Notes under the pieces: generated by a model
Told to the model about the DNA's origin: nothing
Database searches by the model: none
What the model saw: only the letters and a program-made list of their open reading frames with translations
In this document: positions 4,113-15,595 of the stretch, piece after piece
How positions within the stretch are numbered: position 1 is the first letter of the stretch
How the letters are laid out: every line of letters begins with the position of its first letter
Program-made: the position numbers and the translations under genes
NCBI GenBank assembly: GCA_029261295.1
Contig: JAJDBP010000001.1
Span: 1-45,094, forward strand
From: Nitrospirales bacterium
GTDB taxonomy: Bacteria; Nitrospirota; Nitrospiria; Nitrospirales; UBA8639
Direction: 5' to 3'
DNA: 45,094 bases

Positions 4113-4937
4113 ATGGGGACACAACTGTTGTTTTATGAAACTGCTGTCCAATTATCGAGTGAACGACACCGGGACTGGTCCATCAAGAAGGGGACCGATT
4201 ACACCTTCGCCCAACATGTCAATGCGGTTCCTCTCACAGCCGTAGAGTTTGCCAACGCGGCAAGGGAATACGCCATCGTGTTCACGGGCACGGCAGAACA
4301 GGTCATGCCGGCCGTCATTCTTGGTGTACAGAATAAACAAAACTTGTATCTAAAAGCCGATGGAACCTGGCAAGCGAAATACATTCCAGCCTTTGTGCGC
4401 CGCTACCCGTTTGTGTTTTCACGCACGAAGGACGAAAAGAAATTTGTCTTGTGCTTGGATGAATCATTCTCCGGCTGTAATCAACAGGGCCTTGGGGAGC
4501 GATTGTTTGATGCTCAAGGCTCTCGAACTGAGTATCTTGAAAATGTCCTAAATTTCATTAAGCAATACCAAGGCCAATTTCAACTCACTGAGGCCTTCTG
4601 CAAGAAACTCACTGACCTTAATTTACTCGAAACTATGAAAGCTCAAATTACCTTAAAAAGTGGCGAAAAGGTATCCCTCGCAGGATTCATGGGGATCAGC
4701 AGGGATCGGCTCAAGGCCCTACCTGCAGAAAAGTTGGCGGAGTTTGCACAGACCAACGAACTTGAGTTGATGTATATCCACCTACAATCCATGGGCCATT
4801 TTACAGACATGGTCAGCCGTTTGGCTGGAACCATTCCCCAGGAGGAACAAGCTATGGGTGCCGAAAACTCAACGGGCCAGCCAAGCCCAGAGAACCCGAA
4901 AAAAATTAAGAAGACCGTAACTACTGGGAAGGGATAA
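4113..4937 (+). CDS. SapC family protein
   Basis: This 274-residue protein matches the SapC family (Pfam SapC type) along its length. The N-terminal part has the HVNAVPLTAVEFANAAREY segment, then VILGVQNKQNLYL, a W-x-A-x-YIPAFVRRYPF segment near residue 90, and LCLDESF near 110. The C-terminal part carries the usual LTDLNLL and GFMGISRDRLKALP segments. Some family members are linked to S-layer or peptide-resistance loci, but the biochemical role is not settled. There is no signal peptide. The C-terminus is a Pro/Lys-rich tail that looks disordered. The start is well placed: AAGGAG lies 9 nt before ATG. It stands alone on the plus strand, followed by an 11-bp dyad that may end its transcript. 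Confidence 0.88.
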   Translation: MGTQLLFYETAVQLSSERHRDWSIKKGTDYTFAQHVNAVPLTAVEFANAAREYAIVFTGTAEQVMPAVILGVQNKQNLYLKADGTWQAKYIPAFVRRYPFVFSRTKDEKKFVLCLDESFSGCNQQGLGERLFDAQGSRTEYLENVLNFIKQYQGQFQLTEAFCKKLTDLNLLETMKAQITLKSGEKVSLAGFMGISRDRLKALPAEKLAEFAQTNELELMYIHLQSMGHFTDMVSRLAGTIPQEEQAMGAENSTGQPSPENPKKIKKTVTTGKG

Positions 4938-7279: not shown

Positions 7280-9370
7280 TTAGGATGCAGAAGCGACCAC
7301 CTCTTTTTTGTGTTCTTCGACAATGCGATTGACTTGTTCCTTGGGAACATCTTCATACCCAAAAAATTCCATTCGATAGCTGCCTTTTCCTGCCGTCAGG
7401 GATGTCAATGTTGGCGCATAGGTGAGCAATTCAGCCAAGGGTACATGAGCCTTCACTATTTCATTGTGGCCTTTAGCATCCATGCCTTGAATCCGCCCTC
7501 TGCGTGAATTGAGATCTCCGATCACGGTTCCCACGAGATCATCAGGAACGGTGACTTCTACTGCCATCACCGGTTCAAGTAAACCAGCCTGTGCCGACTC
7601 CATAGCTTTTTTGAATCCCATGGAGGCCGCGACCTTAAAGGCCATTTCTGAGGAATCCACTGGATGATGAGATCCATCATACACGGTCACTTGCACGTCG
7701 ATCACCGGGAAGCCTGCAATGATGCCATGTTGCATCGCTTCCTGCACGCCTTTTTCAATGGCAGGAATAAAGTTGCGAGGAATGGCCCCTCCTACAATTT
7801 TATTGTGGAACTCCAAGCCTTTCCCACGAGTCGCTGGCTCGATTTGTAACCAACAATCTCCGAACTGTCCATGCCCACCAGTTTGTTTTTTATATTTACC
7901 TTGGGCTTGTGCCATCTGATGAATGGTTTCTTTGTATGGCACTTTCGGCATATGTAAATTGACTTCCACCCCATACTTGCGTCTCAACTTTTCAAGAGTG
8001 GCATCGATGTGGACTTGGCCTACTCCGCTCAAGAGCATTTCTTTGGTTTCATCATTCCGTAAAAATTCCAACGAGGGATCTTCTTCGACTAATTTATGGA
8101 GCCCTAAACTGACCTTGTCGATTTCCTTATTGCTTTTCACTTCTAAAGCATAGGACATGACCGGCTTCATGATTTTGATACCTGGATAGAGGATAGGATG
8201 CTTTTCATCGCAAATGGTATCACCTGTTTGCGTATCTTTTAGTTTAGCGATGGCTACAATATCCCCTGCAACTGCGTGACCGATTTGTTGATGCTTTTTC
8301 CCCACGGAGAAAAACAGGTGGCCGCCTTTTTCTTTGATTTGGCGAGAGGCGTTGAAAAAGGGAGAATCAGCTTTCAGAGTGCCTGACAAGATTCGAACAT
8401 ACGTGAGTCGACCCATGAATGGATCGATGGTGGTTTTAAAGGCTAATCCTGAAAATGGAGCTTCGGTCTCAGACATTCGTTTGCAGGCTTCCTGTGTGTG
8501 TGGTTGCTTCCCTGCCTGCGGGTGTAGGTTGGCACGATCTTCAGGCGAAGGGAGAAAGCGAGTCATGGCTTCCAGCAAGCTTGCCATGCCGACGTGACTG
8601 GTTGCTGAGCCACACACGACCGGAACAATTTTTCGTTCTAGGGTTCCCATCGTTAATCCATCAATGAGATCTTCGTCAGACAAATCTCCATCGGTCAGAT
8701 ATTTTTCGACCAATTGATCATTCGTTTCAGCCACCAACTCGATGAGTCGACGACGTTGCTCTGTAGTGACGGCTTCGTGTTCTGTCGGAATGTCGCTTAG
8801 TTGAACCTTGGGAGATTGTGTATTGGAGGTCAGGAGTTTTCGATTCAGTAAATTAATGACTCCAGTCAATTCTCCATTTTGAGTCGCGGAGATGGTAAGC
8901 GGGACGCCATTGAGTTCAAGAGATTTTTCACACTCACCTAATATTGAATTGAGGTCAGCATCGCTCTTATCCATTTCATTGATGAAGATGACACAGGGTA
9001 ATTCATGTTCTTGAATCGCCTCCCATACGCGCTCTATTTCTGAACGCAATCCTGTCGCGGCTCCCAATACTAGAATGACCCCGTCTGCGGCACGCAAGGC
9101 TGATTGAACTTCCACGCCATAATCGGTCATGCCTGGTGTGTCGAGCATATTAATTTTTGTTCCCTGCCAATCGAATTGAATCAGCGCAGAGCTCAGTGAA
9201 TGGTGTCGATGGACTTCTTCGGGTTCAAAATCGCCAATGGTATTGCCCTCAAGGATATTTCCCATTGTTGGGATGATTCCACTTGAAAAGGCCAGAGCTT
9301 CAGAGAGGCTGGTTTTTCCGGCTCCAGGATAGGATGCCAGGACAACATTGCGGATGGTGCCGTGTTTCAT
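7280..9370 (-). CDS. fusA2: Elongation factor G-like GTPase (EF-G2 type paralogue)
   Basis: The 696 residues cover the five-domain EF-G layout. The P-loop is ASYPGAGKTS (residues 12-21), G3 is DTPGM (about 76) and G4 is NEMDK (about 129). Domain II (GRLTYVRILSG) and domains III-V (VGQVHIDATLEKL, TGGHGQFGDC, RRGRIQGMDAKG, YRMEFFGYEDVP) follow. The canonical switch I signature RGITI of EF-G is absent; the equivalent region reads HRHHSLSSAL. This marks it as the EF-G-like group rather than the main translocase. Its role is uncertain: ribosome-associated GTPase is established for the superfamily, a specific job is not. GAGGAGG lies just upstream of the ATG, a strong ribosome-binding site. It is monocistronic. 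Confidence 0.92.
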   Translation of the reverse strand: MKHGTIRNVVLASYPGAGKTSLSEALAFSSGIIPTMGNILEGNTIGDFEPEEVHRHHSLSSALIQFDWQGTKINMLDTPGMTDYGVEVQSALRAADGVILVLGAATGLRSEIERVWEAIQEHELPCVIFINEMDKSDADLNSILGECEKSLELNGVPLTISATQNGELTGVINLLNRKLLTSNTQSPKVQLSDIPTEHEAVTTEQRRRLIELVAETNDQLVEKYLTDGDLSDEDLIDGLTMGTLERKIVPVVCGSATSHVGMASLLEAMTRFLPSPEDRANLHPQAGKQPHTQEACKRMSETEAPFSGLAFKTTIDPFMGRLTYVRILSGTLKADSPFFNASRQIKEKGGHLFFSVGKKHQQIGHAVAGDIVAIAKLKDTQTGDTICDEKHPILYPGIKIMKPVMSYALEVKSNKEIDKVSLGLHKLVEEDPSLEFLRNDETKEMLLSGVGQVHIDATLEKLRRKYGVEVNLHMPKVPYKETIHQMAQAQGKYKKQTGGHGQFGDCWLQIEPATRGKGLEFHNKIVGGAIPRNFIPAIEKGVQEAMQHGIIAGFPVIDVQVTVYDGSHHPVDSSEMAFKVAASMGFKKAMESAQAGLLEPVMAVEVTVPDDLVGTVIGDLNSRRGRIQGMDAKGHNEIVKAHVPLAELLTYAPTLTSLTAGKGSYRMEFFGYEDVPKEQVNRIVEEHKKEVVASAS

Positions 9371-9848
9371 ACGAACCTCCTCGTGATGTTGATGGTGGAG
9401 AGTGAATTCTAGGTAGCCAATGATGTGGAGTCAATGGAAAAAATGACATCAGTGTCAGGGATCTCTACGCAATTTTGTGAGTTCTGTCAGTTGCTCGACA
9501 GCATAAGCCTTATTGTGGAATTCCACTATGAAGAAGTCTTTTTATCTTTCGGCAAAAAATTCCCAGTAATTCCAATGGGATTTCTCTCAAGAAGATTCCT
9601 TCGTAGGAGAAAATTTAATTTGGCATTCAGGTTGCTCTATACCTCGTTCATACGAAGATGAATCTGAAGGCCTCCTGAATTCACTTTGATGATTCAGGCA
9701 ACCCCCTTACCTGTCCTGCTGCCTTCCTCGGTTCATTTTTAAAATAAGTTCCTCCTCCAGTTGAGACTTGTTGGGGTTCTTCTGAACCCAAGGAATCGTT
9801 TGCCTAGGCTGATAGGTAAAAATATTTAGGTGCAAAAAGGAACGCAAT
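9371..9848. other. Intergenic region between divergent EF-G2 and hydrolase-methyltransferase genes
   Basis: The region holds divergent promoters by position. I find two imperfect dyads: CCTGAAT/ATTCAGG at 9674-9698 and a TTGGGGTTC-TTCT-GAACCCAA hairpin at about 9771-9791. No convincing gene is present; a 78-codon frame at 9425-9661 lacks a ribosome-binding site and protein-like character. An AAGGAA motif just before 9849 serves the downstream gene. Confidence 0.5.
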
Positions 9849-12143
9849 ATGATTGGAACTCTTCTAGAAACGGTATCGCCCCAAGTCACAAACACAACAA
9901 GTTTAACCTCTATCCAAGCTTCTTCTTTGAAGCCGGTCAGGAATGTTTCTTCATGCCCGTTTACTTCTGTGCCGTTGTCATTTGAGTGTCTCGGTGGAAA
10001 GTGGAAAGGTCAGATACAACTGTTGAAAACTGGATTCTTAGAGTTCCATCTTGAAGGCTTGCCCCCCGTACTCATTGGGCAGGAACTTCAGTTTCAGTGT
10101 TTACAAAACCCGTCAGACCAAAATAGCCAAATATACACCGGAAATATTCACTTACGGCAGATTCAACGAGGAGTCTCCGTCTGGGACGCGACCACCATTC
10201 TCCTGGTTGAACCATGTGGATTGTCACAAAACATTTTGCATCTTGGAAGTTTTGTCAGGAGTCGGCCTTCTGTCGAACAACCAGAGCCTTTTTCTGAAAA
10301 TAGCATTGGGTTTAATCAGTCTGAATCACCCGATGTTTCCCTACAGAAAGTTTTAAACGTCCCCAGAGAGAATTATTTTTCGAATGGCGCACAAATCAAG
10401 AGTTCCCGAGTGTCTTTTCAAAATATTTCAGGGCAAGTGATATCAGCCTTTCATGATTACCCTGTCGATCATGATATGGCCACACTTCCTGTCGTGGTCC
10501 TGGCTCCTGGCTATGGCGAAACAAAACGCGATTATCTCACCCTCTCCTATTTCTTTGTCAGCAATGGCTTTCAGGTGATTCGTTATGATCATACGAATCA
10601 TGTTGGAGAAAGTGAGGGAATCCATTTTGATATTACTCTTTCGTCGATGAAGGAAGACTTCCAGGCCGTGGTTCGAAATGCACGTCAGCGATGGCCTCAA
10701 AGCCCTGTCATTGGAGTAGCCTCAAGTTTGGCTGCACGGGTTGCGCTAAAAGCCGAAGCTAACGACCCATCCCTCACGCTATTGGTTCTGCTTATGGGTA
10801 TCGTTGATATTCAACAGTCCGTAGCCACCGTTCATCTAGAAGATGTTTTTGCGAATTACCTTAAAGGCCACATTCAAAATTGGGCGAATATCTTAGGCTT
10901 TAATGTCGCCAAACAGTTTTTGTGTGATGCGTTGAGCAATGAATATTCCACCTTGGAAACGACCATTCAAGATATTCAGTCCTTAGAAACTCCACTGATG
11001 TATGTCTCTGCGGGGAAAGATGCCTGGATAGACAAAACAGCCTTGTTGAAGTTTAAGCATTCGCTCGATTCGAATAACACACAATGGATAGAAGTCCCTG
11101 AGGCTTTACATCGTATTCAGGAAAATCCAAAAATCGCAAGGATGACGTATCGGCATATTATCCAACATTGTCATGAACAACTGGGATTATCTGTGCGGTT
11201 TTCTGGTATTCAAGAACCCGATCGCGTTGATCTGGGTCGGCAAAACAGACAAGAGAAAATAGCTTTTCAACGACAATCTTTCACTAAAGTCGGAAAGGCA
11301 TTTTGGAGTGACTATTTGGGAAACTTCCAAACCGTGGGTGCCTGCCAGGATTACGTCCAATTGTTAGATCATGTATTTCATGCCTTGGGCCCGATTACCC
11401 CAGGACAACGGCTCTTAGATGCAGGTTGTGGTAATGGGAATGCCGGTTTATTTTTCTTGCAATCTCTTCTGACAAGACAAAATCCATCCCAACAAATTTC
11501 GGACACTCCCATTGACTATATTGGTATCGATGTCGTTCAAGAAGCCCTTGGACGCGCTCAATGTCAGATGAGCGCGGCCTATCGTTCACTTCAGGAATCC
11601 TGCGCTCATGGTGTTGCCCCTATTCGCATGTCCTGGTCGCAAGTTGATTTAGGCCATTCATTGCCATTTAAAGACAATCAGTTTGACCAAATCATTTCTA
11701 ATTTGGTTCTTGGGTATATGCCTGATCCACAAGCGGTCTTGCAGGAACTGTTTCGAGTTCTCGCACCCGGTGGACGGATGGTGATATCGAATCTCAAACC
11801 CAATGGAGATTTTTCCGAAATTTATCAAAACTTGGTTGCTCATGCAGGGTCCAATAATCAAAAGACTGAAGCGCGAGAACTATTAAATAATTATGGAAAA
11901 ATTCGTCAAGCTGAAAAGGAGGGGCAATTCCGGTTCTTCGATCAAACAGAATGGCAAAGTACCCTCGATACGCTGAAATGTGTGCATTCTGGGATCTATC
12001 CGACATTTGCTAATCAAGCCTATCTTATCGTCCTCCAGAAATCTGAAATTCCCACCGACCATTTCCTCTCGCCAACTTTCAAAGAGGGCTTAGGTATTCA
12101 ACTGCATCCTGAATGCTCACCATCTTTGAAGGCGGCAGCCTAG
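9849..12143 (+). CDS. Bifunctional LuxD-like alpha/beta hydrolase - SAM methyltransferase fusion
   Basis: This is a 764-residue protein with three parts. Residues about 40-150 form a beta-rich N-terminal domain (PilZ-like appearance, uncertain). Residues about 200-450 are an alpha/beta hydrolase very like LuxD, the myristoyl-ACP thioesterase/acyl-transferase of bacterial bioluminescence. They include APGYGETKRDYL (219), GFQVIRYDHTNHVGESEG (about 240-257), GVASSLAAR with the likely Ser nucleophile (about 291), GKDAWID with the likely Asp (about 389) and ALHRIQENP with the likely His (about 419). Residues about 480-730 are a class I methyltransferase: motif I LLDAGCGNGNAG (about 521), motif II/III around LPFKDNQFDQIISNLVLGYM (about 603) and LAPGGRM (about 637). 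AAGGAA precedes the ATG. There are no luxAB genes nearby. Inference: it releases or transfers an acyl group and methylates the product or a partner. Confidence 0.85.
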   Translation: MIGTLLETVSPQVTNTTSLTSIQASSLKPVRNVSSCPFTSVPLSFECLGGKWKGQIQLLKTGFLEFHLEGLPPVLIGQELQFQCLQNPSDQNSQIYTGNIHLRQIQRGVSVWDATTILLVEPCGLSQNILHLGSFVRSRPSVEQPEPFSENSIGFNQSESPDVSLQKVLNVPRENYFSNGAQIKSSRVSFQNISGQVISAFHDYPVDHDMATLPVVVLAPGYGETKRDYLTLSYFFVSNGFQVIRYDHTNHVGESEGIHFDITLSSMKEDFQAVVRNARQRWPQSPVIGVASSLAARVALKAEANDPSLTLLVLLMGIVDIQQSVATVHLEDVFANYLKGHIQNWANILGFNVAKQFLCDALSNEYSTLETTIQDIQSLETPLMYVSAGKDAWIDKTALLKFKHSLDSNNTQWIEVPEALHRIQENPKIARMTYRHIIQHCHEQLGLSVRFSGIQEPDRVDLGRQNRQEKIAFQRQSFTKVGKAFWSDYLGNFQTVGACQDYVQLLDHVFHALGPITPGQRLLDAGCGNGNAGLFFLQSLLTRQNPSQQISDTPIDYIGIDVVQEALGRAQCQMSAAYRSLQESCAHGVAPIRMSWSQVDLGHSLPFKDNQFDQIISNLVLGYMPDPQAVLQELFRVLAPGGRMVISNLKPNGDFSEIYQNLVAHAGSNNQKTEARELLNNYGKIRQAEKEGQFRFFDQTEWQSTLDTLKCVHSGIYPTFANQAYLIVLQKSEIPTDHFLSPTFKEGLGIQLHPECSPSLKAAA

Positions 12144-12326: not shown

Positions 12327-14504
12327 GTGAATTTCCACGCTTTCAGCGGACTCCTCAACGGCCTGGCAGCCACGATTTCCGGTCTCATTGTCTACGCCAA
12401 ATATTCGACCAACCCTAAACATCAAGCGTATGGTTTATATGCTCTTGCTGCTGCCACATGGGGATATGGCTACTGGGCTTGGCAGATATCGACGACTCAC
12501 GATTCAGCACTTCTCTGTGTTCGTCTGTTAATGGTCGGGGCCATTTTTTTGCCTGTCGCGTATCTTTTCCACGTCTTCACTTTATTAGACAAGCTTCCTC
12601 GCCAACAACGGTTTTTGTGGTGGACAACGGGAATTGGTCTGTGTTTTTTCCTGACGAATTTAACGCCATATTTTGTTGCTGATGTGCAACCCGCAGGGGG
12701 CTTCCGATTTTGGCCACAACCCGGGCCAGCCTTTCATCCGTATCTTCTCTGGTTTGGGCTCTGTTCACTTTACGGAACAGCCTTATTGTTTCAAGGTGCT
12801 CGGAGCAAAAGTGGCGGTGAGCGCTATCGTTTTTATTTATTAGCCTTTGGGTCCATCGTTGCCTATGGCGGGGGCATGACCACGTTTCCATTGTGGTATG
12901 GAATCAATATCCAACCCAATGGCGCAATCCTTCTTACCGTCTACACCTCCGTAGTCGCCTATACGCTTTTGCGCTACAGACTCATGGATTTAGACACGGC
13001 ATTTGAACGAGGCGTCACTGGAAGTTTACTTGTCTTATTAGTGGCCTTTCCGGCTTATCCAGCTTTATTGATTGGGCAAAAATGGTATTTTGGATCGATC
13101 AATATTGGCTATTCTCTTGTCGAATTGTTTGTTTTGCTCTTGCTGGTGTTTGGTGCATCTTCTTTAAAGACACAAGCCACCACGATTATTACCAAAGCCT
13201 TTTTCAAAGAGCGATATGATCAATATAAGACAGTCTTAGGTTTTTCAAAATCATTGGTATCAATCCTGGAATTGAAGGATTTGACATCGACAATCGTGCA
13301 GTCCATTTGCCCCAGTTTAGGCTTACAATGGGGTGCCTTATTTTTACGAAAGCCTGGAGGAAAAGATTATGATCCCATTTCCAGTTATGGGAAACCACTT
13401 GCGGACTTTTCTCGCTTACAACTGGGACATCTTTCGGCATTAGAGGATCGATGGCAACAGGGAACGACTTGTTTTATCATTGATGAAATGAAAGAATTTA
13501 TGACCGATCCCGACTCACAATCTGTCGTCGCCAAGCTTTCCGCGCTGGGCACAGAAGTCTGCTTGCCTTTAGTTAATAAAAACCGGTTGTTGGGATTTTG
13601 TATATTTGGGCCCACTGTGGCTAGTGGTGGGGGTTATTCTTCCCAGGAATTAGAATTACTCACCACCCTCTCCCAAGAAGCATCAGTGGCATTGGACAAC
13701 GCCCTCCTCTATGAAGAGCTCAAACGTTCCCAATCTTTGGTCCGCCGAACAGATCGTCTTCGGTCACTGGAAACCATGGCAGGGGGATTGGCCCACGAAA
13801 TTCGAAACCCGTTAACGTCCATTAAGGCGTTTGTCGATTTAGCCCCAGAACGAAAAGACGATGAACAATTTCTTGCTCGTTTCAGCAAAGTCGTCAAGGA
13901 AGATGTCTTCCGTATTGAACGATTGACTCGAGAGATTTTAGATTATGCCAAACCCATCGAACCGTTTTTGCGAGAAGAAGATCTAAACGATATTATCGAA
14001 TCCTGCCTCTATACCTTACGGGTTCGGCCTTCTCATGAACTGATTGTAATAGAAACCGATCTGTTGGCGGATCTGCCAAAAGTCTTTGCTGATCGCCAAC
14101 AACTCAAACAGGTCATCCTGAACTTTTTATTTAATGCTGTGGAAGCGATGTTGCCTGATGGCGGAATATTAACGGTTCGAACTCGACATCTGAAGTTTCC
14201 GGGAAAGACCGATTGGGTGCAACTTGAAATTCAAGATGTCGGATCAGGAATTGCGCCTGACGATATTGAACATATCTTTGATCCATTTTTTACGACGAAA
14301 CATTTAAGTCAGGAGCATGAAGGCACGGGATTGGGGCTCGCCATTGCTCATCAAATTATTCAAGAGCATCAAGGAAAGATTGAAGTTCAAAGCTTGAAGG
14401 GACGGGGCACTACATTTTTGGTCAATTTGCCCAGCGTTGCCACTCAGGAAACCTTACCTACCCTTCCCTCCGAAGGAACAACTCCAGCCTCTCAGAGTTC
14501 CTAA
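12327..14504 (+). CDS. Membrane sensor histidine kinase (7TM-GAF-HisKA-HATPase)
   Basis: The 725-residue protein begins with a multi-helix membrane region (about residues 1-285) like the histidine-kinase N-terminal 7TM module. A GAF-like domain follows (about 310-460, ending SQEASVALDNALLYEEL). Next are HisKA with the H-box GGLAHEIRNPLTSIKAF (phospho-accepting His about 490) and HATPase_c, with N-box NFLFNAVEAM (about 600), G1 DVGSGI (637), F-box FDPFFTTK and G2 GTGLGLA (664). The start is GTG 12327, the first usable start after an in-frame stop at 12285; only a weak GGA lies upstream. No response regulator is in the window, so it is an orphan kinase here. Layout and size resemble PrsK-type kinases of PEP-CTERM systems, but I cannot assign that name. 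It lies 183 nt after the hydrolase-methyltransferase gene on the same strand. Confidence 0.9.
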   Translation: MNFHAFSGLLNGLAATISGLIVYAKYSTNPKHQAYGLYALAAATWGYGYWAWQISTTHDSALLCVRLLMVGAIFLPVAYLFHVFTLLDKLPRQQRFLWWTTGIGLCFFLTNLTPYFVADVQPAGGFRFWPQPGPAFHPYLLWFGLCSLYGTALLFQGARSKSGGERYRFYLLAFGSIVAYGGGMTTFPLWYGINIQPNGAILLTVYTSVVAYTLLRYRLMDLDTAFERGVTGSLLVLLVAFPAYPALLIGQKWYFGSINIGYSLVELFVLLLLVFGASSLKTQATTIITKAFFKERYDQYKTVLGFSKSLVSILELKDLTSTIVQSICPSLGLQWGALFLRKPGGKDYDPISSYGKPLADFSRLQLGHLSALEDRWQQGTTCFIIDEMKEFMTDPDSQSVVAKLSALGTEVCLPLVNKNRLLGFCIFGPTVASGGGYSSQELELLTTLSQEASVALDNALLYEELKRSQSLVRRTDRLRSLETMAGGLAHEIRNPLTSIKAFVDLAPERKDDEQFLARFSKVVKEDVFRIERLTREILDYAKPIEPFLREEDLNDIIESCLYTLRVRPSHELIVIETDLLADLPKVFADRQQLKQVILNFLFNAVEAMLPDGGILTVRTRHLKFPGKTDWVQLEIQDVGSGIAPDDIEHIFDPFFTTKHLSQEHEGTGLGLAIAHQIIQEHQGKIEVQSLKGRGTTFLVNLPSVATQETLPTLPSEGTTPASQSS

Positions 14505-14572: not shown

Positions 14573-15595
14573 TTAAGAAGCTGAGGGTTTTCTGGCTTCG
14601 AGAATTTGACCGTCCCAATCACCGGTTCCTTGTTTCATACGACGTATTCTGGTGCGATTCAATCCAGCTTTGTGAAGCCAAGCACGTACGTCTTGTAACG
14701 AGTAGGTGTTACCGGTCTCGGTGTAGAGAAGCATCGTCACTGCAAACAAATTGGTTTCTAAAGGTCGAAGCCCTTGTGGGTCTTGGAGGAAGGTATCTTG
14801 GATCAAAAGCCGACCACCAGGGTTAAGGGCTTGTTTGATTTTTTTGAAAATCTTGCGATTTTCTGATGGCGAGTAAATATGAAGAACATTTGAATACCAA
14901 ACGATATCGTATTTTTCAGGAATTTTGTTCTCGATAAAATTTCCTGAATGCAATGAGAGTCGAGATTCCATAGATAATTCTTTTGCCAAAATACCTGCGA
15001 CTTCTAACGCGGCAGGCCGATCCATGACCGAAGCTTGCAAATGGGGATTCTTCTGAAGAAATGCCAGCGCATAGGTGCCTGGCCCGCCACCAAGATCAAG
15101 AAATGAACGAGCGGACTTCAGGGAGATCTGCTGGGCAACTTGTTTGGCCGGTTCTAGTGAGCGATGATGCATAGCCCAGGTAAAAGAACGTCGGTATTCA
15201 GGCGTTTCTGGTTCCTCATGATCAACGGGAATGCCGGATGTGACCACTTCTGTGAGACGTGACCATTCTTCCCACTGTCGATGCATGAGTGTGAGGTAAT
15301 CACCTCGGAACTCTTTGCTATTTTTTTGGAGATACGTTTTGGCAAATCGACTGACTCGAAACCCTGCTGTTGTTTTGCCCATGAGGCCGGCACTCGCCAA
15401 ACTACGGCAAAGAATTTCTAAGCCCCGTTGACTCGTCTGTACTCGCTTTGATAATTGCGCAATGGTCCAGGCTCGATTGCCCATCTGGTTGAAAAGATCA
15501 AGATCTAAGGCTGTAAATATGATGCGGGATAATCGAAAGCTGTAGACCACATCACGAAACTGTTTGAATGACTGAATGGTAGGACTATGAGTCAT
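14573..15595 (-). CDS. O-methyltransferase-type SAM-dependent methyltransferase
   Basis: The 340 residues have the two-part build of the small-molecule O-methyltransferase family (Methyltransf_2). An N-terminal winged-helix dimerisation domain spans about residues 10-110 (AWTIAQLSKRVQTSQRGLEILCRSL and GLMGKT). It is followed by a Rossmann catalytic domain with motif I FLDLGGGPGTYAL (about 163), DIVWYSNVLHIYS, ALNPGGRLLIQDTF and a final ARAWLHKAGL-like helix. Relatives act on quinone-, polyketide- or carotenoid-like hydroxyls; the substrate here is unknown. It is convergent with the histidine kinase gene (69-nt gap) and is the last gene of a minus-strand unit after the TPR and 145-residue genes (39-nt gap). 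The ATG has no clear Shine-Dalgarno. Confidence 0.87.
   Translation of the reverse strand: MTHSPTIQSFKQFRDVVYSFRLSRIIFTALDLDLFNQMGNRAWTIAQLSKRVQTSQRGLEILCRSLASAGLMGKTTAGFRVSRFAKTYLQKNSKEFRGDYLTLMHRQWEEWSRLTEVVTSGIPVDHEEPETPEYRRSFTWAMHHRSLEPAKQVAQQISLKSARSFLDLGGGPGTYALAFLQKNPHLQASVMDRPAALEVAGILAKELSMESRLSLHSGNFIENKIPEKYDIVWYSNVLHIYSPSENRKIFKKIKQALNPGGRLLIQDTFLQDPQGLRPLETNLFAVTMLLYTETGNTYSLQDVRAWLHKAGLNRTRIRRMKQGTGDWDGQILEARKPSAS

Follow-up and report, generated by a model that had tools for sequence, protein, structure and literature searches.

What might a LuxD-type acyl hydrolase do when it is fused to a methyltransferase and is not part of a lux operon? This question is raised by a gene in the window, i.e. 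the whole 45,094-nucleotide stretch analysed here (contig JAJDBP010000001.1 of the Nitrospirales bacterium assembly GCA_029261295.1). The open reading frame (9849-12143, + strand) is intact, without internal stops, and both the hydrolase and the SAM methyltransferase Pfam matches fall within its single 764-aa chain, as an earlier note made from the sequence alone had claimed. None of the papers searched joins LuxD, methyltransferase, acyl transferase and fusion. The coordinates of the features are collected in Table 1.

Table 1. Features of the fusion gene, its upstream region and the adjoining kinase gene (window positions)
Feature	Position	Strand	Basis or remark
Sigma-54 (-24/-12) promoter-like box TGGCATTCAGGTTGCT	9621..9636	+	begins 228 bp ahead of the start codon
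PilZ-like / LuxD-type hydrolase / SAM methyltransferase fusion protein, 764 aa	9849..12143	+	
Degenerate PilZ-like beta-barrel, aa 41-140	9969..10268	+	hhalign to relatives' PilZ domains; motif check; weak fold match
LuxD-type alpha/beta hydrolase domain, aa 183-448	10395..11192	+	PF02273; 1tht is the best structural match
Predicted catalytic Ser293 codon (VASSLAAR)	10725..10727	+	aligned to LuxD S114; translation; kept in all intact members
Predicted catalytic Asp391 codon	11019..11021	+	aligned to LuxD D211
Predicted catalytic His421 codon	11109..11111	+	aligned to LuxD H241
Class I SAM methyltransferase domain, aa 515-735, motif I LDAGCGNG, acidic D561	11391..12053	+	PF13847 and related; alignment
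HisKA_7TM-GAF-HisKA-HATPase sensor histidine kinase, 725 aa	12327..14504	+	Pfam; conserved adjacency
7TM sensor region of the kinase, aa 15-222	12369..12992	+	PF16927, E 4.3e-12

The central part of the protein (aa 200-438) matched PF02273 (Acyl_transf_2, LuxD; Pfam, E 7.3e-22) with 78.4 bits against a gathering cut-off of 20.3, which, together with the Ser-Asp-His triad, places it in this superfamily. PF02273 was found once in the window genome and had no match in 14 control genomes. The V. harveyi LuxD structure 1tht was the top PDB match of the protein, both by sequence (phmmer, 1.6e-15) and for the AlphaFold model (E 2e-19, Z 29.6, rmsd 3.0 over 276 residues; mean pLDDT 75.8, mostly 80-97 in the hydrolase). 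In the sequence alignment to 1tht, S293/D391/H421 align to LuxD S114/D211/H241, two residues from the positions predicted earlier (Ser ~291, Asp ~389 and His ~419); Ser293-Asp391-His421 is thus the predicted triad, with its geometry taken from that alignment. The LuxD equivalog model NF052253 (NCBIfam) gave 87.3 bits, well below its curated cut-off of 420, and the fusion protein is therefore a relative of LuxD, not LuxD itself. Consequently, the LuxD relationship claimed in the earlier note holds as homology (PF02273, 1tht sequence and structure matches), but not as membership of the LuxD equivalog family. The protein shares with LuxD (Vibrio harveyi myristoyl-ACP thioesterase/acyltransferase) the fold, the triad positions and the RYD..HVG.S.G motif; it differs in its 19% identity, in the fused methyltransferase and PilZ-like domains and in the lack of lux reductase partners.

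Several class I methyltransferase models matched the C-terminal part (aa ~506-702; Methyltransf_31, E 2.5e-18, Pfam). The scores of the methyltransferase subfamilies in NCBIfam did not pinpoint the methylated group, and no PhcB model was among the NCBIfam matches listed.

The N-terminal domain, correctly described before as beta-rich, forms a seven-strand beta unit (aa 41-140) in the AlphaFold model. The window protein alone did not match Pfam PilZ (PF07238), while the profile of its N-terminal family aligned to the relatives' PilZ domains (hhalign profile-profile, P 1.8e-6, probability 90%), weakly to one single PilZ domain, and four close homologues matched the PilZ model (2e-3 to 3e-7). A fold search with the barrel was weak; the YcgR PilZ domain came first (E 0.019), level with further small barrels, V-ATPase N-domains among them. 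The [DN]xSxxG c-di-GMP motif was absent from the window domain, as was a properly placed RxxxR, the sole similar string (RQIQR, aa 102-106) lying away from the domain's N-terminal edge. The motif check indicated that the c-di-GMP PilZ motifs were lost in the window's lineage; they are kept in most PilZ domains of a clade with a dead triad (see below) and in some of the intact long homologues.

Most of the window's genus carries the fusion, which also occurs elsewhere in the family and the order. In a phylum-wide sample it was found in 42 of the 198 genomes, mostly within the order. Among the named records are Nitrospirales MAGs, Candidatus Nitrospira defluvii, a Deltaproteobacteria MAG and the Verrucomicrobia Opitutaceae, Puniceicoccaceae and IMCC26134. 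The recurrence in relatives expected by the earlier note was thus observed, in dozens of independent genomes from several phyla. The PilZ part is missing from the minimal forms of Verrucomicrobia (560-580 aa), those of Nitrospirales have either a PilZ-like domain or a pair of clear PilZ domains, and in a group of ~1400 aa a REC-PAS-PilZ-PilZ stretch stands ahead of LuxD-MT.

The fusion gene is followed on its own strand, after 183 bp, by a gene for a sensor kinase of the HisKA_7TM type (7TM 46.8 bits, cut-off 28.6; HisKA 42.6, cut-off 26.9; HATPase 92.5, cut-off 26.4). When the neighbours were tabulated across genomes, as had been suggested, this adjacency was kept in nearly every homologous locus with downstream DNA in view. 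A 4-bp overlap joins the two genes in L107, L109, L126 and the Verrucomicrobial loci L136-L140. In L107 the operon continues into a sigma-54 NtrC-type regulator and then a REC-HD-GYP protein. In one Nitrospira MAG (L129) a single 1641-aa chain has the order PilZ-PilZ-LuxD-MT-7TM-GAF-HisKA-HATPase; this form could be a frameshift error, as it comes from a single MAG, and its junction residues look unlike those of its relatives. The near-constant adjoining sensor kinase points to a lipid signal for the kinase, probably, and not to light.

No NtrC or HD-GYP gene is adjacent in the window. Candidates elsewhere in the genome were considered and rejected: the closest REC-HD-GYP protein (G000:C30, 53% identity in the receiver) lies in an unrelated neighbourhood, and of the many NtrC-type homologues (best 46%) none is distinctive.

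The box upstream of the fusion gene is the sole zero-mismatch match to TGGCAYN5TTGCW within the window. With at most one mismatch to TGGCACN5TTGCW, a box was found in 26 of the 75 upstream regions of homologous loci, compared to 0.3 expected from base-order shuffles, although these matches are not independent events because many loci are related. Across 16 aligned upstream regions the box was the most conserved block, invariant between diverging flanks. Part of the dead clade has a weaker box at -43 to -46.

We propose, at roughly even odds (about 50%), that the fusion acts as both acyl-ACP thioesterase and methyltransferase and produces a methylated acyl signal for the adjacent 7TM kinase to sense. 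By analogy with LuxD, the hydrolase domain would take an acyl chain from acyl-ACP via Ser293 and release the acid. The fused methyltransferase may then methylate the acyl product, in the simplest case at its carboxylate, to yield an acyl methyl ester or a related methylated acyl compound, which, outside the cell or in the membrane, would be read by the 7TM domain of the kinase. The gene order seen in relatives suggests that the kinase would phosphorylate an NtrC-type sigma-54 activator and, in those relatives, also the REC-HD-GYP c-di-GMP phosphodiesterase. If the sigma-54 box ahead of the synthase gene is used, a positive feedback loop would result. The LuxD fold and triad, the 7TM kinase adjacency, the gene overlaps, the L107 operon, the L129 chain, the sigma-54 box, the PilZ-KASIII gene of L048 and the triad/7TM pattern described below are counted in favour of a signal synthase, as are the known parallels discussed next, and the methylated lipid or signal guessed at in the earlier note fits this genomic context. 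The note had overlooked the adjacent 7TM kinase, the sigma-54 box, the PilZ-like character of the N-terminus, the regulators of relatives and the dead paralogues. Counted against a signal synthase are the small number of independent triad losses, the 7TM kinase kept by the Ser-less L130 and the lack of an adjoining NtrC or HD-GYP gene in the window; moreover, the 7TM domains may be sensing membrane state instead of a diffusible signal.

Two known systems have a comparable layout. In the part of PMC11960443 drawn on here, PhcB of Ralstonia makes methyl 3-hydroxymyristate, which is sensed by PhcS. The 3-hydroxy fatty acid methyl ester quorum sensing system PhcB-PhcS-PhcR/Q has, in that part, a methyltransferase gene with a sensor kinase, and at the window locus a SAM methyltransferase is likewise encoded beside a sensor kinase; its product class, acyl methyl ester, would be the one proposed for the fusion. 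The same part describes PhcB as a methyltransferase, mentioning no LuxD part, and Phc output as running via PhcA. In the DSF system, RpfF is an acyl-ACP thioesterase and RpfC/RpfG its two-component system (PMC4542539), which gives an acyl-ACP thioesterase synthase, a cognate kinase and a REC-HD-GYP regulator in common with the proposed system. Unlike the fusion, RpfF-RpfC-RpfG has no methyltransferase. RpfF is a crotonase-fold enzyme, and the analogy of the fusion-kinase design with PhcB-PhcS and RpfF-RpfC-RpfG is one of layout. There is also a resemblance to the XrtA/PEP-CTERM pair PrsK/PrsR, for which the C-terminal part of the kinase scored 142 bits with TIGR02916 (below the curated cut-off of 300) and the NtrC-type regulator 447 bits with TIGR02915 (below 502.6).

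In a supported clade of 26 sequences the triad is dead: Ser is replaced by Asp, and Asp and His are both lost. The clade retains the RYDHTNHVG-type motif and most PilZ motifs, and its SAM-binding acidic residue is Asp in 7 sequences, Glu in 10 and Gly in 9. Where the triad is intact and a separate kinase is adjacent, that kinase is a 7TM kinase (45/45 homologous loci). The long REC-PAS-PilZ-PilZ-LuxD-MT paralogues with a dead triad and a visible kinase have a soluble one (~425 aa, zero TM, 24/24), and genomes with dead copies only had no match to the 7TM region of the window kinase. In L134 the triad was lost separately, and no kinase gene adjoins. A small clade (L130-L132) is an exception, with Ser replaced by Asn; in L130 the Ser is lost yet the 7TM kinase is kept, and the fusion and kinase genes are separated by an extra PilZ-KASIII gene. 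In the phylogeny, the link between triad and 7TM comprised two changes and was not significant (sign test, independent pairs), because there were only two independent losses. The triad-less paralogue of many Nitrospira, with its PilZ c-di-GMP motifs and soluble kinase, may be a former synthase that now acts as an intracellular regulator. If true, these proteins offer a natural gradation between a working synthase and a dead regulator, with the putative receptor domain lost in step.

At L048:4159-5757 (- strand), the gene between the LuxD-MT gene and its 7TM kinase encodes a 532-aa protein in which a PilZ domain is joined to a beta-ketoacyl-ACP synthase III; the Ser of the LuxD-MT protein is replaced by Asn there.

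The main rival sees in the fusion an enzyme that modifies lipids or edits acyl groups, and in the 7TM kinase a sensor of membrane or envelope state that induces the enzyme via sigma-54. The kinase adjoining the enzyme gene and the sigma-54 box of that gene agree with such homeostasis, nothing in this analysis indicated export, and 7TM kinases are not necessarily signal receptors. Homeostasis alone leaves unexplained why dead copies keep the kinase and lose only its 7TM part, as well as the HD-GYP regulator, and no further lipid-synthesis gene was recognised as a constant neighbour; we consider this rival somewhat unlikely. That the fusion serves chiefly as an accessory to regulate the kinase, acting by protein contact and PilZ/REC/PAS inputs with catalysis secondary or vestigial, is suggested by the PilZ motifs and kinase partner retained in the dead paralogues and by the single-chain fusion of L129. 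The window's lineage does the opposite, keeping the full triad and SAM motif and losing the PilZ c-di-GMP motifs, which makes this explanation distinctly improbable. A role in fatty aldehyde or bioluminescence-type metabolism has LuxD homology in its favour but very little chance of being correct: the window genome had no LuxE family member and a single marginal LuxC-family match (23 bits, within a 999-aa frame elsewhere), in line with the earlier observation of no lux operon, and the constant context is a kinase instead. An assembly chimera of two genes, for which no point speaks, is refuted by the homologues in dozens of independent genomes of several phyla.

Returning to the signal synthase, we suggest only tentatively that it defines a kind of acyl-derived cell-cell signalling not described before, used by nitrite-oxidising Nitrospirales and by Verrucomicrobia, with a LuxD-type thioesterase-methyltransferase as synthase and, in many Nitrospira, a dead PilZ-bearing regulator with a 7TM-less kinase. 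LuxI/LuxR is the only form of quorum sensing considered in a 2025 comparative survey of Nitrospirales, in which LuxD goes unmentioned (PMC12342949). A widespread acyl-signal module, if true, would give major nitrite oxidisers a second, testable communication route, and LuxD relatives would gain a role outside bioluminescence.

Several further observations concern the kinases and the neighbourhood. The partner kinase at L107:11734-14664 (976 aa) has two tandem HisKA_7TM copies, and partner kinases in the Nitrospira defluvii group are about as long (1002-1005 aa). Another paralogue of the 7TM kinase, with 38% identity across the 7TM region, was found at L177:3281-8978 (contig C10 of the window genome) and L178:2423-8814. 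It adjoins a PAS hybrid kinase and another class I methyltransferase with a PLGYAGD-type motif (L177:3281-4231), which we take to recall PhcB. In the window-genome copy the phospho-acceptor His is apparently Gln (LTQELHNP vs. LAHEIRNP), and the HATPase domain was not recognised. Within the window, an O-methyltransferase with a dimerisation domain (14573-15595, - strand; PF00891, PF08100) is convergent with the kinase in a position conserved across the genus. An EF-G-like GTPase (7280-9370, - strand) is divergent from the fusion gene, its position being conserved in the window's family, and a SapC family protein is encoded at 4113-4937 (+ strand; PF07277, E 2.4e-73).
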